A stretch of 64,000 nt of DNA, from NCBI RefSeq assembly GCF_949628265.1, contig NC_088790.1, forward strand, positions 2,050,545 to 2,114,544, read 5' to 3'. Position 1 is the first letter of the stretch. Each line of letters begins with the position of its first letter. Below are positions 26,089 through 47,064 of the stretch, one piece after another. The stretch comes from Cloeon dipterum. Taxonomy: Eukaryota; Arthropoda; Insecta; Ephemeroptera; Baetidae. The notes below the pieces were generated by a model. The model saw nothing but the letters and a program-made list of their open reading frames with translations. It was not told the DNA's origin and made no database searches. Made by a program: the position numbers and the translations under genes.

Positions 26089-27560
26089 TTAATGGCGGAT
26101 AATTACATCACCCAAATCACATATCAATTGTAGGAAAGATGTGACTCTGACGAAGCCATCAGGATAATCAGGTGAGCAGCGGGAGTCCACATCTGTGTGA
26201 GGTCCAAAGCTGGCGATTCCAATTTGGGTCTCCAGTCCGTCAGGTTCAGTGATGAAGAGGGGGTCACCAGCGTGTCCCTGTTGGAAAAATTTGTAAATAA
26301 ATTTTAAGGAGCAAAAAAGCGAATAAAGCGTACATCGCAAATGCCAGATCGGCTTGTGTCGTAGGTGCAAATTGTCCCTACAGTGTCCGCTTCAGGGTAA
26401 TGATGTTTGCAAACTTCTTTTTCGTTGATGATGACGTCAGTGTAGATAGGCTTAGTGTAAGAGGTTTCATCTTAACAAGCAAGTTGGGAATTACAATTTT
26501 GTCCTCTGTGGTAAACACTAAAGGGATTTTTGGTACCATTTGAAGGGCGTCCCCAGCTAGAGATTGTCGCTTTGTCTCTTTCGAAGGTTTCTGAGCACTG
26601 AGAGCTAGTCGGCAGACGGATGGTTGTGAAGCCCTCGCCAGAAACTGGAGCATCCAGGTGAATAACGCAGACACCGTCGTCCAATTTATTACTATCGTGT
26701 GACTTGTATATAGTGGATTTGCCAATCTGCCGGCTGGGTTCATCTTTACTACCAAGGAAGATGGTGAATGATTTTGCTCTGAAATTATGATTAGTTTGTC
26801 AATTCCTATATTCTTTGGCCAGGCCAACTCACTCCATGCAGCATTGATGAGCTGTCAGCACTCTATCTCTCTTAATGAGAGATCCACCACAATAGCTCCT
26901 ACCGTTGTTAATGGAAATCATGACGGTAAATGTTGGTGGTGGTGGTGTGGTGGCGGTTGTTGTTGTGGTTGTAGTTGTCGTCGTAGGTATTGGGCTCTGA
27001 GTTGTTGCCGTTCCATTATCTAATTCAATTTTATTTAATTTAATTCTCAATCAACTGCTGTCAAATGCACATTTTATATTGGTTAATATGTTTTATAATG
27101 TGCACAGATATATATGCCATCCAGTTAACTTACCACCCCTGTCTAGCAAAAAGAAAATGGTGGCCATTGTTGTAGCGGCCAGCAAAATTATCAGGAGGGC
27201 AACGATTATGAAGCGGATGCAGAAGCTGAAAAAAGTTTAATTTGATTGGATTTTGCGTTATTAATGTTCTAGTGTCACCTGCACGTTGCCATCGATTTTT
27301 CATATTTCTTCCCTCCCTCTTCCGTCTGACAGAAAGAAAGAAATTAGTGTCCTCAAAAAACAAGTTGGGAACGCAATTATAATTATGTAGAATTTGGAGT
27401 CATGAACTCTCTATATTTAATTAAGCTTCCATAACCTATCGATTTCGGAAGACCAAGACCGAAATTAACCTTCACCCCTTTGGAGTGCCCACCCTCTATC
27501 ACGCAGATGAAACCAATAAAATATATTACTTACACTGTAGGTTAATTCAGCAAGATGCAT
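26089..27560 (-). CDS. gene A: membrane-anchored S1 pseudoprotease, short stalk
   Basis: Seven exons, high to low: 27560-27534, 27325-27279, 27225-27134, 27019-26833, 26778-26537, 26470-26334 and 26277-26089; 306 residues. The cytosolic tail MHLAELTYS plus a Lys/Glu-rich exon leads to a membrane span (FCIRFIIVALLIILLAATTMATIFFLL), a short Thr/Pro stalk, then an S1 chymotrypsin-like domain with CGGSLIKRD and IGIASFGP. Triad positions: TAHQCC (His57 to Gln), LDDGVCVIHL (Asp102 to Gly), GHAGDP for GDSGGP (Ser195 to Ala). There is no IVGG activation site. Exon 4 uses a different acceptor (GAATTAG) from B to D; the ancestral one would read a stop. Expected to be an inactive cell-surface protein, N-terminus inside. 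Confidence 0.8.
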
Positions 27561-27599
27561 CTTGGAAGTTGAAGAGAGCTGCAGTAATGTCAGAGGAAA

Positions 27600-27720
27600 G
27601 TGTCTCGTTACTAGTGTCCTACTGGTAGGCTAATAGACGTGGAATCGGCTTAGCATTATTTATATTCTACCAGATAGCTGTTAAGCAGGGAAAATTACTT
27701 AATGAGTAAAGTATACTTGT
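27600..27720 (-). promoter_or_regulatory. conserved 5' flank of gene A
   Basis: A block shared with the 5' flanks of B, C and D: GACATTACTGCAGCTCTCTTCAACTTCCAAG directly before the ATG, and farther up ATTTTCCCTGCTTA...AGCTATCTGGTAGAATATAA, with a GATA-like TATC core. Conservation at four loci suggests promoter function or simply recent duplication. Confidence 0.5.
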
Positions 27721-29052
27721 ACTCTATAATACATTATCCTTTAATAACCACAAAATTACTGCTAATGGATTTAATTTTTTAATTAACTAAAATTAAAGAT
27801 ATTGATCCTCAGTGTGCTTCATTATTTTTTGTATGCAATATTAGTGGCCAGAAGCTTTTATTTACGTGCTTGAAAATCTGCAGGCCACTCTTTTGTACAT
27901 TTATTTCAGTGGAAGAAGCCTTCTCATTCCATTAAAATCTTCTCTAAAAGCGTTATTTTTGCATTTAATCTACTGTAGGTCAGGTTCACTAATATAGGAA
28001 TTTTCTCCTGTCGATGAGATCAATTGATTGTTTGCGAGTGACATCAAGCTCGCTAGTGAACGTTTCATGAATATATAGAAGCATTTGATTTTCTAAGGCA
28101 CTCTCTCAGATTTCTAGCAATATATATTTTTCGGACCCGTCAAAGTTTAATCTTGATGAAAACTGACTTATTCGCTAAATTCTGTATGAAAAGCACCCTT
28201 CCGGGTTAACACCATCATAAAACATTCTAAAAAAGTTGCAAAATCAAAATGACAATCGAAAATCAGTTTGCTGGCATTCCAGTACCATAGTTATCTCTAA
28301 AACTGAATTATTCCCTTTGTCTTGGTTCATCTGACATTCCATGTGTTTGCATTCCACACTTCATTTCGGCTTCACAGCGCAACTTTCATTCAATTTCGTG
28401 TCGTTAAAGCCTTGAATGCTATGCAACCCGCACTGAACGACTATTCAGCAGCACAGCTTCCTTCCCTATGCAAGGCGTACACGACGGCCAGATTTTAATA
28501 TGCATGTGTTTGGTGTATTGCATTCCTGGCAACTTGTTTACCTAAAAGCACGCATACTTGAATTCTGTAAATGAATAATTTAATAAAAAATTGGGAAATA
28601 AGGAAAACAATTCAATTAGCTGTCAAATGGGGTTAAATAATTTCTATCATTATCATTTGTTGTTCTAAGTCGAGCTGATTTGTTCAAATTTGTAGGTTTT
28701 TAAAATAAATATTTGTAACCTCAAGCAATGAAAATTAAGAGCCTATTTATTATTTTGGAAAGTCTCTTAAATACATACTATAGCTTAAATAATTAACAAA
28801 TAACCACATAATGATGTCTGTAGAACTAATATTGTACATATTATACCTCAATTTGTAATGAATCTATGTATCTAATTGTTAGAAAATTAAAAAATCGCGG
28901 TGTATTTTGAGGACATTATTGGCTCACTAAGTATCCTCCATTTTTTAAAAATCAGAATTCAGCTGCAAGAGTTATTCTAAAAAAATTTCAAAATAGATCA
29001 TGTAAATGTGATTTATTATGTTACGGTCATCAATATAGCGCGCTTAAGAGTT
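27721..29052. other. intergenic region with degenerate repeat
   Basis: 28386-28490 is a degenerate copy of the unknown ORF block (GTTAAAGCCTTGAATGCTATGC, GCACTGAACGAC, with an in-frame stop). The rest is AT-rich with no gene recognised. Confidence 0.45.
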
Positions 29053-29996
29053 TTAAGGGCAGATCTTGACTCTATCAGTCCACTTTTTAATCCAGTAAGA
29101 GTCTGACGTAGCCGTCAGGTCGATGCGATTCGCAGCCTACTGAAGGACCAAAGCTGACGATTTCAACTTGGGGGTTTACTCCGTCATATTCTGTTCAGTA
29201 TTTTGTTCTAGTAAACGGCCTGGAGAGAAAATTGTTAGTTATTTTGTGTAACCCTCAAATCACTTTGGGTAATCAACCACCTCGTGATTTAAAATATAAA
29301 ACTCTAATAGTTGATTACGTGTTATGATATTAATATTGTGTTGTTTTGTTGTGATATAGCTAGACGAGCGACAGCTGATAAGTTGCCTGGCTCGTCTTGA
29401 AATAAATTTTCTCTAAACAAATCATTGATAAGGAGAATCTACCAATTATTCCGTACAAATTGTGTTTCTTTGCTACATTTTATACAATAAATGACTATTT
29501 TACAATGAAATGGCTCCCGTTTGTTATGGTAAAAGCAAAAATAATAGTGTTTATTTTTTTAAATGTGATCAGATAAAAAATTATTTTGGAAAGTCGAATG
29601 CAGATCGGAAAAGGCAAAATTGATATATTTTTTGTGTCCTAAGTTAAATTATAGTAGATAGAAAATCCAGCTTTATTTTGGCCATTTTGAATTCTTTGGT
29701 GCTTGAATCAACGTTACATTTGATAAAGGAAAATATGCAAAAAAAATCGTATCAGTTTTCCGAATATGAAAGGATTTTTGATATAATGTAATTCGTCAAA
29801 TTCATTTTCTAATGTGTTTGTTCAAATCAACAACCACTTTATCGTAAAACATAAAAAATGCAAGCAAAGATATTTGAGACAGATATGCTCGTCGGGAGGT
29901 TTTACATGTCTGTTTGAACTGGCCTGGTCAAAAACCTGAGATTAAATGGCGTATCTGAGCGACAAGGATGAGGGTCAAGGCCATGACCATCTTTAT
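29053..29996 (-). pseudogene. gene K: collapsed secreted S1 pseudogene
   Basis: Exon 1 survives at about 29950-29996, but its start codon is ATA (AATAAAGATGGTCATGGCC). After a 700-base gap, the exon 2 acceptor and start (CTCCAGGCCGTTTACTAGAACAAAATAC) run directly into the end of the last exon (GAATATGACGGAGTAAACCCCCAAGTTGAAATCGTCAGCTTTGG). All exons coding for His57, Asp102 and Ser195 are deleted and the remaining frame holds stops. Confidence 0.8.
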
Positions 29997-30310
29997 TCCG
30001 GCGATGGATTGGATTTAACTTTATCTTCCTTCCACGACCCGCTATAATTATGCATCTCAAGTTGTTGCAATTTTTACTGGCCAAGGCCTCCTTTACCGCT
30101 GCTCTGGAATAATGGATGTCTAAATTGCAAGATTTCGAAGGTAAATTTTTCAGTTTACAGCCCCTTAAAGCGCAATTTTTCGCAACTTCATCTAATTTTT
30201 GCTTGACTTCTCAAGAGAAGAATGCTCTATTAAAAATATAACTTAAAATTTTAAGAGTAACAGCTTTTAGCTTTAGAGGGATGCTCCATATTTCAGAAGT
30301 TAAAAGGCCG

Positions 30311-30312
<2 letters not shown>

Positions 30313-30364
<52 letters not shown>
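30313..30364. repeat. (TA)n microsatellite
   Basis: About 26 uninterrupted TA dinucleotides between gene B and pseudogene K. Confidence 0.95.
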
Positions 30365-30368
<4 letters not shown>

Positions 30369-30559
30369 TTATCTGACTCATTATGGTAGTACATTCAGGT
30401 GATGATCTTCTCATAACATATTCCATCTGATTGCAAATCATAATACAAAAGAAAATACTAAAGATTGACACATAACAATATTATACAACGATTGGTCAAA
30501 AGTGTGAAGTATGGATCGTTTGAACTATTGCATAAACGGTCCTCGATACAGCAAGAGGT

Positions 30560-32380
30560 TCAAGGAAGGAACATTTCGATCATGTCTAGGTATTTTGTGA
30601 TTCTGGTGTAGCCATTAGGATACCGTGTTTCGCAGCGGGCAATATCTGGGGGTGGACCAAAGCTGGCGAGTCCAATTTGGGTCTCCATTCCGTCTGATTC
30701 TGTAATGGTGAGGGGGTAGCCAACGATTCTCTATTCGCAAAATGTGTGAATAAATATAAAGGAGCAAAAAACGAATAAAGCGTACATTGCAAAAGCCACC
30801 AGATCCGTATTTGGTGTACGTGCAAATTGTCCTATCAGCGTTCGCCCTAGGGTAGAACCCTTGGCAAAAGTGTTTTTTCTTGATGGTGACGTCAGAGTTG
30901 AAAAGCCGAATGTTAGAGATGCCATCTAAACAAGAAAGTTGAGAATTAATATTTTGTCATCTGGTAAACACTGAAGGTATTTTTGATACCATGTGAGGTG
31001 CTTTCCCATTCAGATAAGATAGCATTGTATTTTTCAAAGGTTTTTAAGTCCTGAGAGCGAGATGGCAGACGGATGGTTGTGATTTCCTCGTCAGAAACTG
31101 GAGCGTGCAGGTGAATAATGCAGACTCCATAGTCCAAAAGTGATGGATCGTTTCTGGCGTGCGTCTTGTATAGAGTGGACGTTCCAATCTGCCGGCCGGG
31201 TTCGACATAGTTGATACCGCCAACGAGGATGGTGGAATTTTGGATTCTGAAATTATGATAAGTTTGTCAATTCCTATATTCTTTGGCCAACTCACCCAAA
31301 GCAGCATTGACGTGCTGTCAGCACTGCATCTTTCTTAATGAGGGATCCACCACATATCCTCTCGCCGTTGTTAATGGAAATCAAGACGGTAAATATTCGT
31401 GGTGGTGGAGTGCTTGTTGTGGTTGATGATGATGTTGTGGTGGTGGTTGTCGGTGTTGTGGTGGTTGTTGTTGTTGGTGGTGGTGTTGTTGTGGTTGTCG
31501 TTGATGGTGGTGTGGTGGTGGTGGTTGTCGGAATTGTGGTGGTTGTTGTTGGTGGTGGAGTGGTTGTTGTTGTTGTGGTTGTTGGTGGTGTGGTTGTCGT
31601 TGTTGGTGGTGGTGTTGTCGTTGTCGTTGTTGTTGGTGGTGGTGTTGTTGTGGTTGTCGTTGATGGTGGTGTGGTGGTCGTGGTTGTCGGAATTGTGGTA
31701 GTTGTTGTTGGTGGTGGAGTGGTTGTTGGTGGTGTGGTTGTTGTTGTGTGTGGTGGTGGTGTGGTTGTCGTTGATGGTGGTTTGGTGGTGGTGGTTGTTG
31801 GTGGTGGTGGTGTGGTGGTGGTTTTGGCTGTTGCTGTTGTTGGTATTGGGCTCTGAGTTGTTAGAACTGAATCGATGCCTTTATCGTCATCAATCTCTGT
31901 CAAAAGCACATTTCATATTGGATGTATTATTGTGCACAGATATATATGCCATCCAATTAACTTACCACCCCTGCCTAGCAAAATGAAAATGGTGGCGGTG
32001 GTTGTAGCGGCTAGCAAAATTATGAGGAGGGCAACAAGTGTGAAGCGGATGCAGAAGCTGAAACATAGTTTCATTTGATTGGATTTTGCGTTATTAATGT
32101 TCTCACATATACCTGCACGTTAACCTTGATTTTCGATGTTTCTTCCTTTCCTCTTCAGTCTTAAAAAAAACGAAGGAAATTAAAATACTCAAAAAACTTG
32201 TTAGGATAGTCAATTACAATTATTTTTATATTGGAATCCTGAACTCTTTAATGTAATCTTCCATAACCTATCGATTAAAGAAGGCTAAGATCAAAATTAA
32301 CCTTCTCCCCTTGGAGTGCTCCCTTTCTAACACCTATAAAATATATTACTCACCTCGTAGGTTAATTCAGCAAGATGCAT
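30560..32380 (-). CDS. gene B: membrane-anchored S1 pseudoprotease with long Thr stalk
   Basis: Exons 32380-32354, 32159-32113, 32057-31966, 31896-31296, 31246-30990, 30925-30786 and 30730-30560 keep frame throughout; 444 residues. Order: MHLAELTYE tail, KKHRK basic exon, membrane span (FTLVALLIILLAATTTATIFILL), EIDDDKGID linker, about 140 residues of Thr and Pro (likely O-glycosylated, mucin-like), then the S1 fold. Triad positions: TARQCC (His57 to Gln), LDYGVCIIHL (Asp102 to Gly), RIVGYP for GDSGGP (Ser195 to Val). The basic tail before the span predicts a type II topology. The stalk is encoded by ACC/ACA/CCA triplets prone to length change. Same exon phases as A, C and D. Confidence 0.8.
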
Positions 32381-32439
32381 CTTGGAAGTTGAAGAGAGCT
32401 GCAGTAATGTCAGAGGAAAGTGTCTCGTTACTGGTGTCC

Positions 32440-32555
32440 TACTGGTAAGTGAATAGGCATGACATCAGCTAGCATTATTTATATTCTACCAGATGGCTAT
32501 CTCATAAGCAGGGAAAATAGCTTAATGAGAAAAGTATATACTCTAGATTCTATAG
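32440..32555 (-). promoter_or_regulatory. conserved 5' flank of gene B
   Basis: Same block as upstream of A, C and D: ATTTTCCCTGCTTATGAGATAGCCATCTGGTAGAATATAAAT on the coding strand, holding a GATA-type core, then the CAGTAGGACACCAGTAACGAGACAC segment. Confidence 0.5.
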
Positions 32556-35514
32556 TGCTGATGAGTATTTTGATTTTTTTTTTCAAAGAGCCGTAATCAT
32601 ATGTTACTATTTTTGTGTGTTATATTTTTGTCGATTTGTAATTGGATGGCGTGATTTGATGTTTCGCCATGTCAAGTTGTGTACATGCCAAAAGTTCAAA
32701 TAAATATATTTTTATTAATACCCTTCAAAAATTACAAAAGTACATCTAATGGATTTAAATTTTATAGGATGAATCAAAAACTTATTGAATTAAAAAGTTG
32801 GATCCTCTTTGTGCTTTATTATTTTGGCATTTATTTTTTGTATCGCTCAGACGGTTAAATTGATTTTATGGTCTGCAGCGGTTCCTGCAATAGTTAGCGT
32901 AAACTTCGTTTGTAACCTTTAGATGTCACTTGTAACTCTATGATAAGCTTTTCTCCTTTACCCTGTATAATACACCTTCACTGACCGCTCACCTTCGCAC
33001 GCTTAAGGTCATGTCACATTTACCTCTCCGGCTGGGAGCAATATGTCGTGCGCATCTTTGACGCTTATTATAACTAATAGACCCGACGTACTTTCGGGGT
33101 AAGCATTGTTTAACTGTGATAGTTAATTATTTTTGTTCTCGACTCGCATTATATAATGCTCACAAATTTATTGTTTCTAAAAGACCTTTCCTTTGGGATT
33201 TTATTGTCAATATTTTATATGCAATATTTACAGTCTTAATTATGGATTAAATGCTACACTATAAAAAAGAGACAGATGTAATTCCATTTTCCGCCATTTT
33301 CCTTGGCTCGAACCCAGTATCCCACAGTCCTCTTCTGTTTGGCAATATGTTATTCCTCGATATTTTCCAAAAAATGATAATAATAATTAGCAGAAATGAT
33401 GTTTTACATTTTTACTGAACACATCTAATGATTCTTAAACATTTTCAAAAGTGTTTTCACAGTTCTACCCTAATTAAGTATTTAGTTTTTGACGGTTGCA
33501 TCAAATAAATGGAATATATAGATAATTTGGCATGGATGTTAAATTATTCTATAAAACGTCAACGCTATATAGTGTCGCTTGGAACAAATGACGGTGTTCT
33601 CATCATGCAGCCCATCTGAGTGAAAAATTAACAAATAATGCAAAATACAGAACAAACGAGCGTCGTTTAAAACGGGACATGCAGGTGTTATGAGAGTGCA
33701 AAGAGTCCCTTGTTTTTTTTTTTTTTTTTTTTTTAAATACGCAGGGTATACTTTCTCACCAATTATTTGCATGACTCATACATATAAATCGAGAAAAATG
33801 GCAGCATGTTGTATTGAGCCAAAAGAGGAGTCTTGGCGAATACCACTCGCCCGCAAGAGCCCGTATCAAACGTTCTTTGGCAGTAAACACTTCTCGACAG
33901 TCGACTCGCATCCACTCCAAATGATTACGCCGTGTAGGACATCATTGAGTATGCGTGGGCGCAATAAACATTTAACAAGAACTGTTCGTTCACAACATTT
34001 TTATGCTGTTAATTCACTATCGTTACAGTAGTGTGGAGGCTGCCAACAATATAATTCGCATGAAATCGAACCTTTTGCTCGTAGAACGATGTCAAAAGTT
34101 AAACCAATGTTGGATCTAATTAGATTACTGATTGATCGCCAGCATTAAAATATTATTAAGTCATCGCTGTGAAAACGAAAACACTCCAATTTGGAGTTCT
34201 CTCAGTGCGACATAATTACGAACAATATATTAATGTGATAATAATAATTAATTAATTCTTGTTTTCTCGCTTTCCTCAGAGCAGAAAAAGGTCTTCCATA
34301 AAATGCACAATATTACTCGTGTAAGAAAACTGGAATAAAAGAAAGTATGCAACTCGCGGCGTTTAAAAGCAGTGCCAGTTGCAACCTCATCACTTGACCG
34401 TGTGTTTCTCTCACAATCAGCAATCAGTATATATTCTCGCTTACATTTTTTATTCGTAGGCGAGTTTAAGACGAAATTTTTAATAACAAAAAATAATTTA
34501 TATTATGTTACGAAACGAAATATAAAAAATCATAAATTCACGCTTTGAGTGGCATATTTTTAGAATAGAAAAACCTCCTTGAGAGGCAATGGGATTCAAT
34601 CAAATCCATTCCAAATCCGCTCCAATAGCACCGCCGAGCGGATAAATAAATTTGTCCAATGTTACCAGAAATCTTAGAAACGAACTGCGAGACCTGAGCG
34701 AGCAAATAAGAAATGAATCCTGTCCAGTAAGGAGATGTAAATTGATAAAAGAAAGAAAAAGTCTGAAAAAATATGTAGGCTTTAAAATTAATACTTAGAT
34801 CTGAATCATGGTGCCTGAGTGGCCCAAGTGGCCGCAAAGGAGCTTGGACCCAATGTGGCCACCTGTTCGCCTCCCCGCACCGAGGTCTTTTAATTGAAAC
34901 GCCAGACATTTGTCCATAAAGTCGCTGGAAAGGTGCACAAACCAGCAAGTGGTGCGTTGGCGCCGGTGCGCCTCCAAGCCCGTTAAGAAATTTGAGCATT
35001 TCGAGTCACTAAACTAACCACTTTTTGCCATCTCTGACATTAGGTAGCCAGTATATTAGATCTCCGAACAGCTCAAATACTTCCCATTGCTTTGACACTC
35101 CTGAGAATGCCTTGACAATGCGAGCCAACGGGCTGGTTATAATTAATATACCACATTTTGCCATGAATTTAGATGCTATCAACAATTTTAAAATCACGTT
35201 GATTTTGAAGTATATAGCTAGTGGGCGTTTTGGTTTTAATGGGAATTTGTCACAAACAAAAAACTAGCTGGGTTTACAGCAATGAGGAAAACTTAATTGG
35301 TTAGCAAAATTTATACAAAGTGAGAGAATAAGTGGTTAGTTAATGGGGGAGGAAAATGCCAGGGAAGCTGATGTAAAAAAACATCTCCAGAGCAGAAAGG
35401 GGCTTAAATATAAATTTTCTCTTTTTAAGAAATTAGAAAGCCGCTTCAAGGGTTATTCAACTGAAATTTCAAAACTTTGAAATAGAACTAACGGTCCTCG
35501 ATTGCGCTAGAGTT
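32556..35514. other. intergenic region holding the inverted-duplication edge
   Basis: 34188-34380 is the reverse complement, with divergence, of parts of 39577-40040 (AAAGTATGCAACTCGCGGCGTTTAAA; GGAGTTCTCTCAGTGCGACATAATTACG). 34800-34988 is the minus-strand copy of the GC-rich repeat at 25677-25925. A poly-T run is at 33713-33734. ORFs at 33690-34031 and 34538-34999 have no recognisable family and look accidental. Confidence 0.5.
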
Positions 35515-37225
35515 TTAAGGGCGGATTTTGACTCCTGCCCACCTTTCGATCCAGACAAGGTATTTTGTGATTCTGGTGTAGCCATCAGGATCAGACGTTT
35601 CGCATCCTTCTGGTGGACCAAAGCTGGCGATTCCTACTTGGGTCTTCACTCCGTCATATTCAGTGATGGTAAGGGGGCTGCCAGAGTCTCCCTGCGATGG
35701 CACAAATTTGTAATTAAAAATTAGGGAAAAAACAAAGCACGTACATCGCAAATGCCAGATCCTTTAGGGCCGTACGCGCAAAGCATCGCGGCAGTGAAAT
35801 CATCGAGGTGTTTTCTGCATTCCATATTGTCCATGATGACGTTGGTGTACCTTTTAGCAGTGTGTTGGAGTCGGTGTCGTCTAAACAAGCAAATGGGATA
35901 GAAATTATTTTCTTGTAGACACTAAAGGGATTTTTGTTACTATTCGAGGTGAACCCCCAGCCAGAGATGGTAGCTGATGTTTTTCCTGCAAAGGTTTCTA
36001 ATTGTTTGGCCTGGGAGCGGGACGGAAGACGGACAACGGCAATGCCCTTGCCACGAACCTCTTCGTCCAGGTGAATAATGCAGATGTCGTTATAATCATT
36101 AATGGGGTTGTATCTAGGATGAATTGTGGCTTTGGTGGAATTTACAATTTGCTGGTTGGCTTCTTCAATGCCATAGTTGACAGTGGCAAGGAAGATCTCG
36201 AAAAATGTCGCTCTGAAATTATTTAAAGTTTGTTTAGTTTTATTATTTTGTGGTCATCTTTTACACACTCGTAGCAACAATGAGCGGCAGTCGCACTTTA
36301 TCCTTTTTAATAAGGGAATCACCACATCTACTATAGTTTTGACAGTGTTCAATCCAAATAAAAACCTCAAAGGGAAGAAATCCAGCGGGTGCGACGCGAC
36401 CACCGACGATGTGCGGTTTGAATCGACTGAAAAATTATCTTCTTATTACCAGCGCGCATCACAAATTAATTGTATAACAAACCGTGAGATTCCCTGATGG
36501 CGTTTCTGTACGATTGCATTTTTTGCCAGTCCAACGGCCTGAAAAGAAAATTTGTTAGTTTTGTTCAAACTTCAAATAATCTTGTTTGGATTCAAATAGC
36601 TCGTGAATTATTAGTGATTGTTTGTGTTAAATTAACTTTTATGTAGACAAAATAGACAATTTTTGTTTATAAATAGTTACAATGAGCACGAGCTGATAAT
36701 TCTCTTGAATTTGCTGTAATTGTAAATACATTTTCTTTAAAAATAAATTTCACTGATAAAGGGAGGACGCACAATTAGTCAGTACAAATTTTTGTTTTAC
36801 ATTTTGCAACATTTTCATGATGTTTGATATAAGCTGACAATTTTACAAAAGTAAGTTAATGATAAAGTCGAAATTTAAAAATCAATGAATTGTTAAAATA
36901 ATAGATTTTCTCAAAAAGTAGTAATCTGATTAAAAATCGAATGCAGGAATGTGAAGGCCATGTGATGGAATTTGAATATTGTCTTAGTAAGCTGACCTTT
37001 TGGCCGTTTCAAATTTTTAAGATTGAATCAATGTTCCAAATTGCCTTTACGGTAAGTTAGGCAAGGGAAGTGTATCAGCTTTCCGAATTTGAAAAGATTT
37101 TTGATCTAGCAAGCATAAACAGTCCTAAATGATATTCGTCTAATGAATTTTAAATATATAAATTTTAAATGTCATACTTGAGCCGCGAGGACAAAGACGA
37201 GGGTCAAGGCGATTACAGTCTTCAT
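35515..37225 (-). pseudogene. gene E: secreted S1 protease with two frameshifts
   Basis: Exons 37225-37178, 36538-36483, 36426-36269, 36212-35941, 35880-35745 and 35691-35515. It begins with signal peptide MKTVIALTLVFVLAAQ, then a pro-region and a clear IVGG start (KPHIVGGRVAPAG). Residues for the triad are encoded: TAAHCC, YNDICIIHLD and GDSGSP. Two breaks were found: one base missing before TAAHC (GTGCGACTGCC where paralogs have GTGCTGACTGC, near 36289), and a net two-base gain near 35855 in exon 5. Between and after them the family sequence resumes in another frame, so the breaks look recent. Sequencing error is the other explanation. The promoter has a TATA box (37268-37274). Confidence 0.78.
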
Positions 37226-37460
37226 TCCGGCGTTTGGAGTGATTTAACTAACCTGCTTTGCGTCTCATTTTATAGCAAATTTTACCTGCCAATAAAAACG
37301 TAGGTTTTTCTTGCGCACGAATTGTGTAGATACGCTAAACTAATACAAACAATATTTAATTTTTGATTACTTCCTCAATGCTTAAATTATCTTTATCTCG
37401 CTCGTGAGCAATTTTTGTGTATCTTTCTTATTCTTGTGCATAAATTTGTTGTTAGTATAT
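37226..37460 (-). promoter_or_regulatory. promoter and GATA-motif block upstream of gene E
   Basis: On the coding strand TATAAAA (37268-37274) lies about 45 bases before the ATG, followed by the family leader GTTAAATCACTCCAAACGCC. Farther up (about 37381-37450) is AAGAAAGATAC...GCTCACGAGCGAGATAAAGATAATTT, a block repeated upstream of H (53440-53500), I (56515-56575) and the relic exon at 62.0 kb. AGATAA is the GATA-factor core; gut expression is only an inference. Confidence 0.5.
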
Positions 37461-38066
37461 GATTTTTTTGTTACGTGTTTTCTGTTCATAAACTAAAAAT
37501 AATTGCTGTTCATTTTTTCGCGTCGAAGATAATGGCAGATAAAGAAGAGTGACCCTTTTTTGATAAACAGAGGGTCACATTTAATTCCTCAAAGGCCACT
37601 CTTTTTCCAAACATTTGGATAAGTAAATAAGGGTCGCAATTTTCGTTACCTCAAAATTAAAATCTTTCTCCAAATCATCTGTCAGTTTAAGAGCACATTA
37701 AATTTATTTATTTGTATTCATCAATGGTACAGGAAATTGAAGCTCCTTCAGAACAATCTAATCCTTTCTACTTTTGTCATGAATCTATAGATGTTATAGA
37801 GAGTTTGATAATCACGATGAATTTCAAGAAAGGGCGATTGCGTTTTTTTAGAAATTGGAAAGCCGCTGCAAGGGTTGGGTAAAAAATATCAAAAAAATTG
37901 AAATAAACAATTTGATTTCTTAATTAACGGTCCTCGATACAGCAAGAGTTTATTCCAAGTCTGCAAGGGTTGTTCAAAAGCAATTTCATAGGACTGAAAT
38001 ATAGAGACGAATATGTGATTTATTACTTAATGGTCCTCGATGGTTCCAGATTTTTAAAAAAAGGAT
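37461..38066. other. spacer with two 3'-flank relics
   Basis: 37855-37945 and 37960-38050 both look like S1-gene 3' flanks (GCTGCAAGGGTTG...AAATTTCA..., AACGGTCCTCGATACAGCAAGAG). Only one belongs to gene F; the other marks a copy deleted between E and F. Confidence 0.5.
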
Positions 38067-39435
38067 CTAGAGTCCAGCAACCCTTTTGATCCATTTAAGG
38101 TAATATGTGATTCTGACGTAGCCGTCAGGACGAAGCGATTCGCAGCCGCCAACCCCTGGGAGAGGACCAAAGCTAGCGATTCCGATTTGGGTCTTCACTC
38201 CGTCAGATTCGGTGATGGTGAGGGGGCCGCCAGAATCTCCCTGCGTTGCCAAAAATATGTAAATTAAAGTTATGAAGCAAAATAAAGCGAATAAGGCGTA
38301 CTTTGCATATACCAGATGCGTAAGCAACGTTGTTCGTGCAAATAAGAATCGTCGAATTAAAATTTGGATAGTACCGACTGCAGAAGGTAGTGTTCATGAT
38401 GATGACGTCAGTGTACCTCAACACAGTGTTACCGGTGTCCCCTAAAAAGGGGGGAATTAAAATTTGTCCTATCCTAAAGGGATTTTTGTTACTATTTTTG
38501 GTGCGTCCGTAGCCAGAGACGGTAGCTTTTTTTCCTGCGAAGGTCCTTTTGGCCTGGGAGCGAGACGGAAGACGGATGGTGGCGATGCCCTCGCCACAAA
38601 CCTCTTCGTCCAGGTGAATTATGCAGATATCGTGTTCATCAGTTACAATGTTGTAACTCTCGTGAATCGTGTATCTAGTGGCCATGCCATTCTTTCGGTT
38701 GGGTTCCTCGATATCATAGTTGATAGTTGCATGAAAGACAACGAAAAATGACGCTCTGAAATTATTAAAAGTTTGTCAAAAAATCTATTTTCTTGGTGGC
38801 CATCTCACGCACTCGTAGCAACAATGAGCAGCAGTCAGAACTTTATCTTCCTTAATCAGGGATCCACCACAGATTTTGTTCCTTCCGTCGCGTTGATACC
38901 AAATCAGAACCTGGAAGGGAAGGAGTCCAGGGGGTGCGACGCGTCCACGGATGATGTTGGCTACAAAAAAATTATATATAATTCATTGTACATAAAAATC
39001 ATTTGTTTAACAAACCGTGAGAGATGCCGTTTCTGTAGGATTGTATTTTGTGCCAGTCAGCGGCCTGAAAAGAATTTTTTTAAATTGTAAATTATGTGTG
39101 GAATCAAATGCCTCTCGAATTAAAATAACACTCTTGTGTTATATTATATTTTATGTAGATAAAAAACCCTATATTTGTTGTGAAATAACTGCGTTTATCA
39201 GCACGTGCCGATGATTCGCCTGAATTGGTTGGACATGTAAATATAGATTTCTAATTTCCTCAAAGAATCCTTTGATGAAATGCAAATTATTATTAATTAG
39301 TAAATAATAATATTAAAATAGATATGCTCAGGAGGCTTCAGGACTGGCTTGATGATTTTGGTGAAAACCTGAGATTTAATGGCATACCTGAGCCGCGACG
39401 ACAAGGACGAGGGTCAAGGCGAGGATCGTCTTCAT
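38067..39435 (-). CDS. gene F: secreted S1 serine protease, triad intact
   Basis: Exons 39435-39388, 39064-39016, 38960-38813, 38755-38493, 38441-38302 and 38240-38067 keep frame; 273 residues. Signal peptide MKTILALTLVLVVAAQ, short pro-region, mature start near NIIRGRVAPPG (residue 35 on), CGGSLIKED, His78 in TAAHCC, Asp124 in EHDICIIHLD, Ser219 in GDSGGP. Position 189 (chymotrypsin numbering) reads Gly (SGICKGDSGG), so trypsin-like cleavage after Arg/Lys is not expected. The residue before the mature N-terminus is Asn, not Arg or Lys, so the activation route is unclear. The only intact candidate active enzyme in this array; digestion or defence are possible roles. Confidence 0.85.
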
Positions 39436-40311
39436 GATGGCGTTAGAGTGATTTAACTAAATTGCCTTCCACGCCCTAGAACAATGGTGCATTTCATGTT
39501 ATTGCAATTTTTACTGGCCAATCAAATCGCATTTTTTCTCGCGCACGAGAAGCGTAGAAGTTCGCAAATAATGGCACTGCTTTAAAACGCCGCGGGTTGC
39601 ATACTTTCTTTTATTCCAGTTTTCCTGCTCGAGGAAATCGAGCATATTATAGAAGACCTATGCTTTTTTTCTGTTCTGAGAAAGCGAGAAAACAAGGAAA
39701 TAGAAAGTAATGTGTGCCAAGGAACTCGCCGAGAAGTGGGTCTTAGTGGCTCTTAGACGTCTACTTTGCAGTTTTCTGGCATCTTTAATCTGGTCACTCA
39801 ATTGAACTTTAAACTTGACGCACAGCAGTGGATTTGCGTATGTTTATTTTTTTATGAAATTGCAGTAAAAGTCAAGGCAAATTATATATTATCCTTTCAA
39901 ATGAAATACTCTAAAATTGTTTTTAGTAAAGGGATAATTTTTGTGAAAATAACAGGGACCACAAATTAATATCACATTAAAATATTGTTCGATACTCACA
40001 CGTAATTATGTGGCGCTGAGAGAACTCTAAATAGGAGCAATGAATCATTTAACTCAGACTCAACACAGGTTTAAATTTTGGAAATTCCTGATTCATATCC
40101 TATAAAATTGAAATCCATTAGAAGCAATTTTGTAACTGTTGAAGGGTATACTTATACTTTTCTCATTAAGTTATTTTCCCTTCTTATGGGATAGCCATCA
40201 GGCAGAATAAAAACATGCTTAACTGATGCCACGTCTAGTCAATTACCAATTGGACACTAGTAACACAAACACTGTCCACTGACATTACTGCAGCTCTCTT
40301 CAACTTCCAAG
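39436..40311. promoter_or_regulatory. shared divergent upstream region of genes F (-) and C (+)
   Basis: Near F: the leader GTTAAATCACTCTAACGCCATC and GGGCGTGGAAGGCAA, with no clear TATA box. Near C: the block shared with A, B and D (TTATGGGATAGCCATCAGGCAGAATAAA; ACTGCAGCTCTCTTCAACTTCCAAG). The middle (39577-40040) is an inverted copy of 34188-34380. Confidence 0.5.
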
Positions 40312-41007
40312 ATGCATCTTGCTGAATTAACCTACGGGGTGTAAGTAATAGATTTTATAGGTTTCAACTCAACAGTGTGTTAGAGCGGGGGCATTCCAGA
40401 GGGGGGAAGGTTAATTTTGATATTGGTCTTCCTTAATCGATAGGTTTTGGAAGCTTAATTAAATTTGGAGTTCATGATTCCAAATTCTAAATAATGATAA
40501 TTGCTTTTCCAACAAGTTTCTTGAGGTTGTAATTTTTTTCATTTTTGTTAGACGGAAGAGGGAGAGAAGAAACGTCGAAAATCGATGTCAACGTGCAGGT
40601 AAAATGTGACAATAGAACATTATTAACGCAGAATCCACTCATACGAAACGTTGTTTCAGTTTCTGCATCCGCTTCACACTCGTTGCCCTCCTGATAATTT
40701 TGCTGACCGCCACGACCATTACCATAATTTTCTTTTTGCTAGGCAGGGATGGTAAGTTAATTGGACGGCATGTTTATACATGCACGATATATCCTATATG
40801 AAATGTGCATTTGACAGAGATCGATCATGGAAAATGCAGCGATTCAGGTACAACGACTCAGAGCCCAATACCAACGCCGACAACTACAACCACAACAACA
40901 CCACCACCACCACCATCAACAACCACGCCAACACAACCAAAAACCACCACTACTCCACCACCATCAACAACCACCACCACACCACCAACAACAACAACCA
41001 CACCACC

Positions 41008-41039
<32 letters not shown>

Positions 41040-42063
41040 CATCAACCACCACACCACCAACAACAACCACCACCACACCACCACCAACATCATCAACCAC
41101 CGCACCACTACCAACAATAACCACCACCACACCACCACCAACAACAACCACACCACCACACCACCAACAACAACAACAACCATACCATCACCACCACCAC
41201 CAACATATATCATCTTGATTTCCGTTAACAACGGAGAGTGGTATTGTGGTGGATCACTCATTAAGAAAAATAGAGTGCTGACTGCTCGACAATGCTGCAT
41301 GGGGTGAGTTGGCCTGGCTGGCCAAAGAATATAGGAATTGACAAACTTTAATCATAATTTCAGAGCAAACATGTACACCATCTTCCTTGGTGGTAATGAC
41401 GAACCCAGCCGGCAGATTGGAACGTCCTTTAAATCCATTACGCATGATAATTTCGACCTATCAATATTGGACGACGGTATCTGCGTTATTCACCTGGACG
41501 CTCCAGTTTCTTGCAAGGGCGTCACAACCATCCGAATGCCATCTCGCTCTCAAAAATCGGAATCCTTTGAAAGATACAATGCTACCTTCTCTGCCTGGGA
41601 ACGAACCTCAAATGGTATCAAAAATCCCTTTGGTGTTTACCAGGGGACAAAATTTTAATTCCCAATTTGGTTTTTTAGATGACACCTCTAACACTCAGCC
41701 TATTCACACTGATGTCATCATCAAGGAAAAAACATTTTGCAAGCGGGTCTTCCCTGATGCGAGCACTAAAAGGACACTGCACATACGACACAAACGGATT
41801 TGGCATTTGCAATGTACGCTTTATCGTCACTTTTTTGCTCCTTAAAATTTATTTACAAATTTTGTCAACAGAGATGCGCTGGCTACCCGCTCACCATTAC
41901 TGAATCTGACGGAGTGGAGACCCAAATTGGAATCGCCAGCTTTGGTCCACCCCAAACTGTAGATGGCGATGGCTGTAAAACGTATTATCCTAAAGGCTTC
42001 GTCAGAGTCACAAAATACCTTTTCAAGATCGGAATGTATGCAGGACTTGATTTCCGCCTTTAA
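40312..42063 (+). pseudogene. gene C: membrane-anchored S1 pseudoprotease, two frameshifts
   Basis: Exons 40312-40338, 40552-40598, 40660-40751, 40818-41303, 41364-41614, 41679-41813 and 41872-42063 follow the A/B/D plan: MHLAELTYG, basic exon, membrane span (FTLVALLIILLTATTITIIFFLL), Thr/Pro stalk, S1 domain. The stalk frame and the protease frame do not match: exon 4 is 486 bases where the paralogs require one more, and the switch is within the ACC/ACA run near 41150-41165. Exon 6 lacks two bases (AGGACACTGCACAT for AGGACA..TTTGCACAT, near 41772). Triad positions are TARQCC, LDDGICVIHL and RCAGYP, so it was already catalytically dead. It could be a pseudogene or a misassembled low-complexity tract plus a real break. 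Confidence 0.75.
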
Positions 42064-43009
42064 AACTCTTTGCTGTTCCGAGGACCGTTATGTAATTTAT
42101 CAAATTATGCATCTTTCAAACGATCTTCTGACCATTTAATCTTCAGTACGTTTCTTTCAACATCATGATATGAGAAACGCCGCGTGCTTCACTTTTACTA
42201 CAGGGAGGAGCACCGACGAAAAATGCTTTGCTGCGACGTTGAAGGCTTATTCGTTTTGAAAATATTTTCAACGCTTTTATCCCTCTACAAATATTTATTG
42301 AGGCAAACAAGAAAATTCAGTTAACATATCAATAATATGTTATTTTTGAAAACCTTTTGAATTTCTTTTACTCTAACAAACTACAAAGCCCGGAAGAAAT
42401 TATATATACATTATCTTCTTATTTTCAAATTTTTACATTAAAATAGTCGTAATAATATTATTCACAGCTTAAAAAGTGGTAGAAGCTTTTGTTCTTATCA
42501 GAATTTGCAGATGCACTCGCCGATCGCGCTGCTGTGGTACTTTTTTGTTTTGCACAGCAGGAAGTGGAAATCGTGGCACGCGTGTCGAGAGGGCGCGTGC
42601 CTCATGTCGTAGCAGTAGCACACCGATTTCCAGCTTTTGGGTTGGCCATTGCGGGAGCACCATAAAATTCCGGGTCGATTTCAGAAAACTGGATTTTCTG
42701 ATTGTCCATGAACTTTGTTGTAGTTTTGCGTTCTAGGCAGCATGCAAATTATAAATAAAAAATTATCATATCAGAGAAAAAATACACTGACATCGGTTTA
42801 TGCACAACTATCAAAAAGATCAACAAATATTCCTCAAAAACAAGATAAAGATAAATTTTTCTCTGAGTAGATGACCTTAATTTCCATAATTGTTTTTGTT
42901 TTGCCTCCTTGCATTTATTCCGTTCGTGACGTTTGCGATAAAGTGAGATCAATTGAGATATATAAGAGCCTGGAAAGCATGATGCTAGTTAAATCACTTC
43001 AACGCCAAC
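42064..43009. other. spacer between C and G, with possible small Cys-rich reading frame
   Basis: On the minus strand 42498-42664 reads a Cys-rich stretch (WCSRNGQP, VCYCYD, RHACHDF, LLCKTK, ECICKF, stop). No start codon or splice acceptor fits upstream, so it is not called as a gene. The G promoter lies at the right end: TATATAAG (42958-42965) and AGTTAAATCACTTCAACGCCAAC before the ATG. CTAACAACTACAAAG-type 3' flank follows gene C. Confidence 0.4.
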
Positions 43010-44585
43010 ATGAAGACTGTCATCGCCTTGACCCTCATCCTTGTCGTCGCGGCTCAGGTACGTCATTTAATCTCAGATTTACTTGTCACCAACCTGCGAC
43101 TTCCTGAGCATCTGTATTTAAATTATTATGTTTCTAATTTAAAAATATAAATTTTACTTTTGAGGTTTTTCAAACTTTTACATTTCTGCATTTGATTTTC
43201 CTAAAGCATTTTTAATCCAAAACGTTTCAAGATCTCATAACAAATTAAAATTTTGTGAAATTGTAATCTTTTAGCAAACACTCTTTAAATGTAGCATAAA
43301 AACACCATTTGTACTGACTAATTGGTGCGTTCCACACTTGTTGGGCGATTTTTTATTACTGTCGGAGATATTATATTAAATGTCCAGCCAGTTCAGGCGA
43401 ATTATCGGCTCGTGGCAGCTAATAATCGCCGTTATTTCACAGCAAAAATAGTTTTTCGTATCTACGTAAGAAATAATTGAACACGTAAATGACTATGGGA
43501 GGCGTATTTTAATTCGAGAGGCATTTGATTCCACACATTTTTTTAAATTTAAACGAAAGTAATGGTTTCTTTCCAGGCCACTTACTGGAACAAAATAAGG
43601 CCAATACAACCATACAGAGACGCCATCAGGAAATTTCAAGGTTTGTTTCATATTTAATTTTTGACTCACATGAAGAAAATTTTTTTAGCCTACTTAATGA
43701 ATGGTCGAGAGGTCACACCCTCTGGCCCTGGACTTCTACCATTCCAGGTGCTTATTTCCAACAGAAGGAAGTTCTGTGTTGGATCCCTCATTAAGGAAGA
43801 TAAAGTGCTGACTGCTGCTCAATGCTGTTCCGGGTGAGTGAGATTTCAATTGAAAATAAAACTCGACAAACTTTGGACAAACTTATCAAAATTTCAGAGG
43901 ACGCTTTTTCCTTATTTTCCTTGGCGGAAACAACCTTCACACTGACGAACCAAGCCGGAGGCAGATTGTCTGGTCTACTAAAGCCACAATTCACGAGAGT
44001 TACAACCCATCTAGTTTTGAAAACGATATCTGCATTATTCACCTGGACTTCCCGGTTTCTGGCCAGGGCATTTCGCCAGTCCGTCTGCCGTCTTGTTGTC
44101 TGCTCTCAGAAACCTTCGCAGAACGCACTGCTACCGTCTCTGGCTGGGAATTCACCTCAGATGGTAACTAAGATCCCTCCAGTGATTTCCACTGGACCAA
44201 ATTTAATTCCCCACTCGCTTTACTAGGTGAATCATCCACTATCAAATCCCAGCTTGTTCGCAGAAATGTAACCGTCTTAGAAAATGGGGTATGCAGATTG
44301 GCATATCCAATTGATCCTAGCAAGACAATCTGCGCGAAAGGAATATCTGGCATATGCTATGTAAGCATTATTCGTTTTTTGCATTTTAAATATTAAATTT
44401 ACAAATTTTTCAAACAGGGAGACGTTGGCGGCCCCCTCACCATCACTGAATGTGACGGAGTGGAGACCCAAATTGGAATCGCCAGCTTTGGTCCTCACCC
44501 ACTGGATGGCGGCTGCAGATCTAATTATCCTGACGGCTACACCAGAATCACCGAATACATTGACTGGATCAAAAAGTTGACTTGA
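43010..44585 (+). CDS. gene G: secreted S1 protease homolog, inactive
   Basis: Exons 43010-43057, 43578-43640, 43690-43837, 43898-44164, 44226-44360 and 44419-44585, with inner borders accurate to a few bases; about 275 residues. Signal peptide MKTVIALTLILVVAAQ, pro-region (ATYWNKIRPIQPYRD), then AYLMNGREVTPSG in place of IVGG, and CVGSLIKED. Triad: TAAQCC (His57 to Gln), ENDICIIHLD (Asp102 kept), GDVGGP (Ser195 to Val). The frame is open from start to stop, so it is likely expressed as a serine protease homolog. In insects such homologs act as cofactors or pattern-recognition partners; which applies here is unknown. A TATA box lies about 45 bases upstream. Confidence 0.8.
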
Positions 44586-45311
44586 AGTCACGAATGTCAC
44601 GATCTGCCCATAAAACTAATAAAGCATCTATACTATTATATCTACACTATATATATATATATATATATATATCTTCTAAAATAAATCAATTTATCAAACT
44701 CAAACTTTTAGAAAATTTTTGACAAAAAATTTGAAAGGATTAAAATGAATTGATTGCCTCTATTAAATGGCTGCTCTCAGGGACGAGCGCAGGACAGTTT
44801 TCGTCCTAATCATAAATTTTGAAACCATATAACGCAAACATTTTACTCAGGATTATTTAAGCCACCAAATAATTAATTAGGGAAGAGCTGTGAAAACATG
44901 TTATGAAAAATGTTTAAGAATCACTTAACTGTAATAATCAGAAAATAAACAATGTAGTATTATTTCCACTAATTAATTAAATTATCAATGTGAGCGTCTG
45001 AGCGATACAAAAAATAAATGCCAAAATAATACAGCACAAAAAGATCCAACTTTTTCTTTCAAGTTTTTGATTCATCCTATTCAATTTAAATCCATGTTAG
45101 AAGTAATTTTGTAATAATTGTTGGAGGGTTAATGGATTCTAAAGTAGACACTTTTCTCATGAAGTCATTTTCTCTGCTTATGAGATAGCCATCACGTGGA
45201 ATAAAAATATCGTAATAATCTGATACCAAGTTCATTCACTTACCAGAAGGACACCAGTAATAACATTAACACTTTCCACTCACATTACTGCAGCTCTCTT
45301 CAACTTCCAAG
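44586..45311. promoter_or_regulatory. G-D spacer with (AT)n run and conserved 5' flank of gene D
   Basis: AT dinucleotide run at 44649-44672. The block at 45150-45290 matches the flanks of A to C: TGCTTATGAGATAGCCATCA, then CATTACTGCAGCTCTCTTCAACTTCCAAG just before the ATG. Confidence 0.5.
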
Positions 45312-47064
45312 ATGCATCTTGCTGAATTAACCTACGGTGTAAATATATATTTTTAAGGTTTCCGCTGCGTGTTTTATCCAGCACCTATATAGAGAGGGGG
45401 CACCCCAAAGACGTGGTCTTCCTTAATCGATATATTGCAGGCTTTATTTTATATTTAGAGTTCATGATTCCAGTATTTAAATAATTATGATCGCTTTTCC
45501 AACAATTTTTTGAGTTTTTTAAATTTCCTTCATTTCTGTTAGACTGAAGAGGGAAGGAATAAACATCGAAAATCGAGGTCAACGTGCAGGTATATGTGAG
45601 AACATTTAATAACGCAAAATCCAATCAAATGAAAAATGTTTCAGCTTCTGCATCCGCTTCACACTTGTTGCCCTCCTCATAATTTTGCTAGCCGCTACAA
45701 CCACCGCGACCATTTTCATTTTGCTAGGCAGGGGTGGTAAGTTTATTGGATGGCATAACTATGCACAATAATATATCCTATATGAAATGTGCGTTTGACA
45801 GAGATTGATGACGATAAAGGCATCGATTTAGTTCCAACAACTAAGGGCCCAATATCAACACCACCAACAACAACAACCAAAACCACCACCAAACAACCAA
45901 CAACCACCACCACAGCACCACCACCAACAACCACAAAAATCAGCACCACGCCTCCAACAACCACAACTAAAACAACACCACCAACAACAACCACCTCCAC
46001 AGCACCACCACCAACAACCACAAAAATCAGCACCACGCCTCCAACAACCACAACTAAAACAACACCACCAACAACAACCACCACCACAGCACCACCACCA
46101 ACAACCACAAAAATCAGCACCACGCCTCCAACAACCACAACTAAAACAACACCACCAACAACAACCACCACCACAGCACCAACAACAACCACAGAAACCA
46201 CCACCACGCCACCAACAACCACACCACCATTTGCCGTCATGATTTCCATTAACAACGGCGAGAGGTTTTGTGGTGGATCGCTCATTAAGAGAGATGCAGT
46301 GCTGACTGCTGGTCCATGCTGTGACAAGTGAGTTGACCACAGCACAGTTAGGAATTGACAAACTTATCATAATTTCAGAGCAAAATCATTCACCATCTTC
46401 CTTAGCGGTATTGACAAACCCAGCCGGCAGATTGGCAAATCCTCTAAATACGTGAAGGACAGTAGAATCGACCTATCAAGTTTGGACTACGGTGTCTGCA
46501 TTATTCACCTTGACACTCCGATTCCCGGCATGGATATTGCCATCATCCGTCTGCCATCTCGCTCTCAGCGCTCAGAAACCTTTGAAGGATACAATGCTAC
46601 CGTCTCTGGCTGGGGACGCACATCAATTGGTACAAAAAATCTCTTTTATAAGTGTTTAGCAGAGGACAAAATTTTAATTCTCAACTTGCTTTTTAAGGTG
46701 ACAACTCTCTTACCTACACTGACGTCATCATCAAGGAAAAAACATTTTGTCAACAAGTCTACCCTGAAGTGGGCGCTGAAAGGGCAATTTGCACATATGA
46801 CACAAACGGATTAGGCATTTGCGATGTACACGATTTATTTTTTAACTCCTTAAAATTTATTTACAATTTTGCGAACAGGGACTCGTTGGTGACCCCCTCA
46901 CCATCACTGATTCTGACGGAGTGGAGACCCAAGTCGGATACGCCAGCTTTGGTCCTTCCCGAGAAGGAGGAGGCTGCGAAACGTATTATCCTAACGGCTA
47001 CGTCAGAGTAACAGCTTATCTTGACTTGATTGCATTTTTTGGTTTTATCTATATCCGCCCTTAA
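45312..47064 (+). CDS. gene D: membrane-anchored S1 pseudoprotease with repeated Thr stalk
   Basis: Exons 45312-45338, 45543-45589, 45645-45736, 45802-46327, 46379-46629, 46698-46825 and 46879-47064 all keep frame; 418 residues. MHLAELTYG tail, KHRKSRSTC basic stretch, membrane span (FTLVALLIILLAATTTATIFILL), EIDDDKGID linker, about 125-residue Thr/Pro/Lys stalk, S1 domain. Triad positions: TAGPCC (His57 to Pro), LDYGVCIIHL (Asp102 to Gly), GLVGDP (Ser195 to Val). No IVGG. The intact frame despite a dead active site argues that the protein is still used, as a surface receptor, decoy or matrix protein (inference). Confidence 0.82.
45906..46165 (+). repeat. 87-bp tandem repeat in the stalk of gene D
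   Basis: Three copies, the last shortened, of a 29-residue unit containing TTTAPPPTTTKISTTPP and TTTTKTTPPTT. Copies are almost identical, so the array probably varies in number between individuals. Confidence 0.85.

Follow-up and report, generated by a model that had tools for sequence, protein, structure and literature searches.

Gene organization at the locus

The stretch of DNA analyzed here, referred to as the window, comprises 64,000 nucleotides of Cloeon dipterum (NC_088790.1, contig C5 of the 190-Mb assembly, positions 2,050,545-2,114,544) and contains four genes, A to D, predicted to encode membrane-anchored proteins in which a Thr/Pro-rich stalk leads to an S1 serine protease domain with all three catalytic residues replaced. 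Exons were read by their AG/GT borders and the incoming phase was checked for each exon. The exon-1 sequence occurs at four places in the window and is accompanied at all four by a 47-nt basic and a 92-nt hydrophobic exon. The initial annotation had proposed for A to D a common seven-exon plan, consisting of an MHLAELTY tail, a basic exon, a membrane span, a Thr/Pro stalk and the S1 domain, and this was borne out: A, B and D each translate through seven exons with incoming phases 0, 0, 2, 1, 2, 1 and 0 (Table 1), the protein of D having 418 residues.

Its count of three open frames among the four genes holds, with a reservation for A. Genes B and D are open without any adjustment, whereas A is open only if its exon-4 acceptor lies 38 nt downstream of the one used by the other copies; read from the homologous acceptor, codon 4 is TGA. 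Gene C is broken twice: its exon 4 has 486 nt when read as far as the GT at 41304, whereas the length of this exon is 1 modulo 3 in the seven open copies known (see below), and its exon 6 has 135 nt, in place of a length of 2 modulo 3 in the open copies, which adds a second frameshift.

Distribution of the family across the genome

The same genome was searched with the transmembrane (TM) exon and three S1 exons, and only the best candidates were scored, so that the copy numbers given here are lower bounds. Four large contigs carry between them at least eight full-length loci, of which seven are open (A conditionally), and half of the full-length members found lie in the window. The four extra full-length open copies (J, K, M and N; Table 1) share the exon plan of A to D, with exons 1-3 of 27, 47 and 92 nt and phases as in A, B and D, and all have a dead triad, which takes the seven-exon observation beyond chance. 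Exon order is kept at the eight loci and the phases are identical at seven, and among the open copies the lengths of exons 4, 5 and 6 differ by whole codons only. For exon 7 of J a start six bases earlier is a possible alternative.

Two more loci carry the N-terminal module without an S1 domain: in L024 the stalk reads into a stop, and in L027 a short ectodomain is followed by a stop. The TM exon of L027 is the more divergent of the two, and this locus may be a copy that was truncated or a short relative of old origin. An orphan J-type exon 7 lies at about 2446 of L036 (contig C3 at 1.448 Mb), with no further S1 motif within 4.5 kb, and contig C1 gave a weak TM-exon match (E 0.004) whose surroundings (L029) are without a family match. 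Between dispersed copies, upstream homology stops about 130-280 bases before the ATG in most of the pairs listed and extends past 400 bases in one; up to the limit at about 130-280 bases the copies could have a promoter in common, or this limit could be the border of a duplication. A mobile element as the source of the dispersal was also considered, by comparing homology ends only and with no search for element ends.

Membrane anchor and stalk

The peptide encoded by exon 1 is MHLAELTY in A to D and J, with related peptides in K, M and N, and exon 2 is basic. Exon 3 encodes a hydrophobic run with a mean hydropathy of 2.6 to 2.9 over 21 residues, and the net charge of the flanking 15 residues is +1 to +5 before the span and -1 to -3 after it, in C as well as in the seven open copies; the best hydrophobic stretch of N begins eight residues earlier. 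This hydropathy and charge bias fit a putative type II-like membrane anchor, whose N-terminus would lie inside.

Measured from residue 56 to the start of S1, the stalk has 30 residues in A, 168 in B and 143 in D. The values of A and B are also the extremes among the seven open copies, whose stalks contain 42-67% Thr and 16-28% Pro and, in D, an 87-bp repeat. The Thr-rich stalk of the initial annotation is thus present, although the length of 25 to 140 residues given there had too low an upper limit. In composition it agrees with mucin-like stalks, which are rich in Thr, Ser and Pro and often repeated, and it is likely to be O-glycosylated. The N-terminal modules (exons 1-3) of B and D differ by a synonymous divergence (dS) of 0.06 and their S1 domains by 0.36, a sign of gene conversion between these inverted copies.

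The S1 domain and its catalytic residues

A Pfam scan, made on A, B and D, confirmed the S1 assignment with matches to PF00089 (2.1e-24, 2.6e-17 and 2.9e-23, respectively). The best solved-structure sequences for D and A are 1hyl and 1azz, of the brachyurin-type collagenases and chymotrypsins, which are active secreted enzymes; 1hyl, the Hypoderma collagenase, matches D at 8.7e-22.

In chymotrypsin numbering, and in the order J, K, M, N, A, B and D, position 57 is occupied by Q, I, K, Q, Q, Q and P, position 195 by A, P, A, V, A, V and V, and position 194 by H, F, Y, Y, H, I and L; position 102 is G in all seven open copies and in C, which further has Q at 57, A at 195 and Cys at 194. All three triad residues are therefore replaced in eight of eight full-length loci, and the substitutions listed by the initial annotation for A to D (His57 by Gln or Pro, Asp102 by Gly, Ser195 by Ala or Val) were all recovered, as was the absence of the IVGG start, in whose place the stalk is found. 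Cys residues 42, 58, 168, 182 and 191 are invariant in all seven open copies whereas positions 57, 194 and 195 vary, and because these five cysteines are kept the S1 fold probably is too. Active S1 enzymes are switched on by a salt bridge between Ile16 and Asp194; with the IVGG start and Asp194 both lost, the two ends of this activation switch have gone together. Since the change of Asp102 to Gly is common to all eight loci, loss of the triad very likely predates the spread of the family, and the domain, judging from these residues, would be non-catalytic.

Secreted paralogues and phylogeny

The genome also contains secreted S1 paralogues. By motif reading all three catalytic residues are kept in gene F of the window and in N2 (L028), L33, L30a and L32a. 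Losses are found in gene E (H57Q, S195V), L32b (H57Q), L30b (Arg at 57), L31 (Asn at 102, Ser195 lost), H and I (GDFAGP) and L34 (GDSGGP changed to RDAGEP). Gene E keeps Asp102 and Asp194, has the S1 intron phases of the membrane genes and starts with what by eye is an ordinary signal peptide. E-like secreted S1 exons with Gln57 also adjoin J on contig C3 (L023, about 8700-9040), which may reflect the joint duplication of a membrane gene and an E-like one. Nearly identical secreted S1 copies that keep His57 and Asp102 and have GDFAGP for GDSGGP lie at 51064-51900 and 55300-56000 of the window, and a further one in L035; by this replacement the catalytic Ser is lost in those secreted copies too. 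Secreted gene G (window 35480-37240) keeps Asp102 and GDSGSP, and its His57 exon changes frame, TAAHCC standing in another frame than the exon start. N2 (L028, about 8400-9300) carries the triad motifs and probably has a frameshift in exon 6, which is split over two frames.

Two data sets recover the membrane family as monophyletic with a support of 100: exons 5 and 7 of 19 sequences, of which eight are membrane copies, and the full S1 domain of 16 sequences, of which seven are membrane copies (C, G and L30b are not among the 16, and N2 lacks exon 6). L34, L35 and L36 were motif-read and are in no tree; H was picked by first match and may mix in a near-identical neighbour copy. Gene E joins the membrane family on exons 5 and 7 with a support of only 54 to 61, and on the full S1 domain it groups with H and L31 (support 70). 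An arrangement with E as sister of the membrane family, in which catalysis would have been lost first and the anchor gained later, was dropped for these reasons. The two data sets thus place E differently, which leaves it a candidate for the closest secreted relative; triad loss may have preceded or followed the gain of the anchor.

Selection on the S1 domain

The main selection tests used seven of the eight copies; C was left out, and added in one test. Pairwise ratios of nonsynonymous to synonymous substitution (dN/dS, or omega) in the S1 domain range from 0.76 to 1.31 (21 pairs). Under the site model M2a the codons fall into classes with omega 0.10 (26% of codons), 1 (53%) and 3.6 (21%), and under M1a 35% of them are near 0.1. 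M2a fits better than M1a by twice the log-likelihood difference (2dlnL) of 45.3 and M8 better than M8a by 47.0, whereas 116 simulations under the M1a null reached a maximum of 7.7. The trees of the two S1 halves differ. The signal stayed within 12.6 to 53.0 with two other trees, with ungapped columns, with 163 strict columns (40.4) and with each half on its own tree (12.6 and 32.9). In the N-terminal module the site signal is weaker (15.3).

Drift simulated from a consensus proxy to the observed divergence gave a mean of 22 stops over seven S1 domains, with all seven open in 0 of 2000 runs, vs 0 stops observed; the run assumes independent copies, and the seven had been chosen from eight for being open. 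The initial annotation had named neutral evolution in all copies as what would speak against it. The average dN/dS near 1 does look neutral, but plain neutral decay is disfavoured by the site models, the null simulations and the stop-free frames.

The secreted paralogues with an intact triad (n=4, full S1) have an average omega of 0.53, clearly below 1, and they also reject M1a (2dlnL 11.2), as do two other triad-bearing secreted sets of four and five members (exons 5 and 7; 18.6 and 20.2). It follows that diversification runs through the clade and is not special to the dead form, and a diversification peculiar to the membrane family was rejected as an explanation.

Position of the fast-evolving codons

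Sites were numbered by alignment to trypsin, with the last helix anchored by hand, and the posteriors are empirical Bayes values without correction for parameter uncertainty. Seventeen sites have a probability above 0.9 (51, 60, 64, 92, 95, 98, 127, 142, 154, 170, 171, 174, 175, 233, 236, 239 and 240), and 233, 236, 239 and 240 recur on one face of the C-terminal helix. Most of the fast codons fall at positions that form surface loops or helix in S1 enzymes.

A comparison set of six secreted sequences was limited to exons 5 and 7, so that the 170 loop is outside the comparison, and was mixed in composition: F, L32a, L33 and N2 have the full triad, L32b has Gln57 and G the shifted His57 exon. 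Thirteen sites exceed 0.9 in this set, namely 72, 76, 84, 93, 96, 99, an unnumbered one (D residue 104), 143, 145, two just before Cys220, 233 and 241. The probabilities in the membrane family are 0.01 to 0.07 at 72, 76, 84, D residue 104, 143 and 145, 0.15 to 0.70 at 93, 96, 99, 241 and the two sites before Cys220, and 0.95 at 233.

Of eight residues of thrombin exosite I, none is selected. The heparin site of thrombin (exosite II) comprises Arg93, 101, 126, 165, 233, 236 and 240 (PMC3495972; PMC8509272). An overlap with this site was noticed after the sites had been seen: three of its six alignable residues are selected vs 14 of 214 others (Fisher p 0.0067), 101 and 165 being conserved, and a circular-shift test gave p 0.005, or 0.027 to 0.087 with wider or longer lists.

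Other features of the window

The coordinates of the genes are collected in Table 1. A 213-aa frame at 53969-54610 (minus strand) resembles by eye a piece of a non-LTR retrotransposon reverse transcriptase, and a single open reading frame of 405 aa at 11593-12810 (minus strand) is by eye rich in Lys, Glu, Ala and Pro and contains a 174-bp coding tandem repeat. Two arrays with a 100-bp unit, at 17110-17375 and 18426-18794, have consensus sequences that are related by eye. Rfam and tRNA scans of the window gave no matches.

Table 1 Genes of the membrane-anchored S1 family and secreted paralogues; positions are those of the window unless a contig is named
Feature	Position	Strand	Description
Gene D, exon 1, MHLAELTYG	45312..45338	+	phase 0, GT donor
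Gene D, exon 2, basic segment	45543..45589	+	exon reading
Gene D, exon 3, hydrophobic span	45645..45736	+	exon reading, hydropathy
Gene D, exon 4, Thr/Pro stalk and S1 start	45802..46327	+	87-bp tandem repeat in stalk; His57 to Pro
Gene D, exon 5, S1 part	46379..46629	+	Asp102 to Gly
Gene D, exon 6, S1 part	46698..46825	+	
Gene D, exon 7, S1 end and stop	46879..47064	+	Ser195 to Val
Gene B	30560..32380	-	444 aa, open; exons 32354-32380, 32113-32159, 31966-32057, 31296-31896, 30990-31246, 30786-30925, 30560-30730
Gene A	26089..27560	-	306 aa, open with downstream exon-4 acceptor; exons 27534-27560, 27279-27325, 27134-27225, 26833-27019, 26537-26778, 26334-26470, 26089-26277
Gene C	40312..42063	+	common exon plan, with exons 4 (40818-41303) and 6 (41679-41813) frameshifted; remaining exons 40312-40338, 40552-40598, 40660-40751, 41364-41614, 41872-42063
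Gene E, secreted dead paralogue between C and D	43010..44585	+	274 aa, open; H57Q, D102 kept, S195V; exons 43010-43057, 43577-43640, 43689-43833, 43898-44163, 44227-44360, 44418-44585
Gene F, secreted paralogue	38070..39440 (limits approximate)	-	His57, Asp102, Ser195 kept (TAAHCC, HDIC, GDSGGP)
J (L023)	contig C3		393 aa, open
K (L025)	contig C2		415 aa, open
M (L026)	contig C4		437 aa, open
N (L028)	contig C5 at 1.626 Mb		347 aa, open

Possible function and alternative explanations

We consider it rather probable that these genes form a family of non-catalytic, membrane-anchored S1 pseudoproteases whose S1 head binds at the cell surface, as a receptor or decoy. The protein would reside in the plasma membrane with its N-terminus inside, the Thr/Pro stalk, with its likely O-glycans, would lift the S1 domain, and the S1 fold would act as a binding head, not a cutting one, for a ligand that keeps changing. 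That the protein is used, as the initial annotation had suggested, is supported by the kept frames and the site-specific constraint. From the roles put forward there (receptor, decoy or matrix component), receptor or decoy is favoured, and a matrix role is less favoured than binding because it is the S1 head that carries the fast codons, for the most part at loop or helix positions of the S1 enzyme surface.

Several observations weigh against this interpretation. A single omega over all sites is 0.95, not different from 1, and compared with the 0.53 of the triad-bearing secreted paralogues it indicates a weaker overall constraint on the dead head; the same paralogues also reject M1a, in three sets (2dlnL 11.2 to 20.2). 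Gene conversion, as between B and D, and multi-nucleotide changes can inflate site tests on paralogues, and both are outside the models used. The ten loci with an N-terminal module point to high turnover, since C is frameshifted, L024 has lost its S1 domain, L027 is short and ends in a stop and A needs a shifted acceptor. The coincidence of part of the diversifying face with thrombin exosite II is modest, given how it was noticed, and may serve as a lead.

A decaying family of pseudogenes or near-pseudogenes, drifting since catalysis was lost, would account for the average omega near 1, for the frameshifts in C, the missing S1 domains of L024 and L027 and the shifted acceptor of A, and for the orphan exon 7 in L036. 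We hold it to be very improbable in view of the seven S1 domains, which have no stop against about 22 expected, the 26% (M2a) or 35% (M1a) of codons with omega near 0.1, the rejection of M1a, and exons 4 to 6 that differ by whole codons only in the open copies. Somewhat more weight is due to an artefact, by which gene conversion, multi-nucleotide changes or alignment would mimic positive selection on heads that are under relaxed constraint. The visible B/D conversion and the differing half trees are in its favour, together with the average omega, but the signal persists when each half is given its own tree (12.6 and 32.9) and when the 163 strict columns are used (40.4), so that we see this explanation as on the unlikely side.

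Two further alternatives concern the protein as a whole. The hydrophobic segment might be a cleaved signal peptide, or the ectodomain might be shed, which would make the product a secreted mucin-like S1 homologue, and paralogues such as E do start with an apparent ordinary signal peptide (by eye). The hydrophobic run, however, has at least 21 residues and follows an N-terminal part of 23 to 31 residues with a net positive charge, and usual signal peptides are shorter than such a combination; we find a secreted product somewhat unlikely. It is also conceivable that the stalk, with its 30 to 168 residues and 42-67% Thr, is the working part of a structural mucin found in cuticle, mucus or the lining of the gut, and the S1 domain its cap. 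Yet the S1 head holds the invariant cysteines and the fast codons, and a mere cap need not diversify, so that this too appears unlikely.

Returning to a surface binding head, a more specific version of it can be put forward tentatively, as a possibility. The family may be a lineage-specific surface recognition set made from a killed protease on a mucin-like stalk, with a diversifying face that largely matches exosite II (C-terminal helix, 92-98, 127 and 170-175), while 143 and 145, fast in the secreted paralogues, are quiet (142 excepted). Such proteins could act as arms-race receptors or decoys, e.g. for protease inhibitors or microbial ligands.

Comparison with known membrane-bound and non-catalytic S1 proteins

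Type II transmembrane serine proteases such as Stubble, corin and TMPRSS consist of a cytoplasmic tail, a span, a stem and a C-terminal S1 domain. The order of parts is alike here, and to this extent the resemblance proposed by the initial annotation stands; the likeness ends there, as the triad, the R|IVGG site with its activation start and Asp194 are absent and Pfam found none of the stem domains SEA, LDLRA, SRCR, CUB and Frizzled in A, B and D, so that the proteins fall outside the definition of these proteases. With an S1 domain and replaced catalytic residues they fit instead the class of the serine protease homologues (SPHs).

Membrane-linked SPHs have been described in insects. PMC1761132, which also covers Stubble and corin, reports three honey bee SPHs with a membrane segment, and PMC11172050 describes SerPH570 and SerPH364 of Tenebrio as type II proteins with SEA, Frizzled, LDL, EGF or SRCR domains. 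The honey bee and Tenebrio proteins have in common with the present family a membrane segment and an S1-like domain whose catalytic residues are replaced. The Tenebrio pair has stem modules, whereas here Pfam finds only Trypsin (A, B and D), the stalk is bare Thr/Pro and the family is multicopy, dispersed and fast-evolving. Clip-domain SPHs (CLIPA, SPCLIP1) are reported to have a non-catalytic S1-like domain with a non-proteolytic role; they share the dead domain, but in place of their plain secreted form a span is found here, and Pfam detected no clip domain in A, B and D.

A search of the open-access literature found no stalked, membrane-anchored family of dead S1 domains, which is weak evidence only. 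Most described S1 homologues in the group are secreted. Triad-bearing secreted, partly dead secreted and membrane-anchored dead copies stand side by side in this one genome, which makes it possible to follow a change of role inside a single clade, and the listed fast sites point to the surface to be used in binding tests. If the interpretation is true, the family would offer a case, open to testing, in which a pseudoprotease fold was taken over for diversifying binding at the surface. Membrane-linked S1 homologues are thus known in insects, and it is the stalk-only, multicopy and fast-evolving form that is new.

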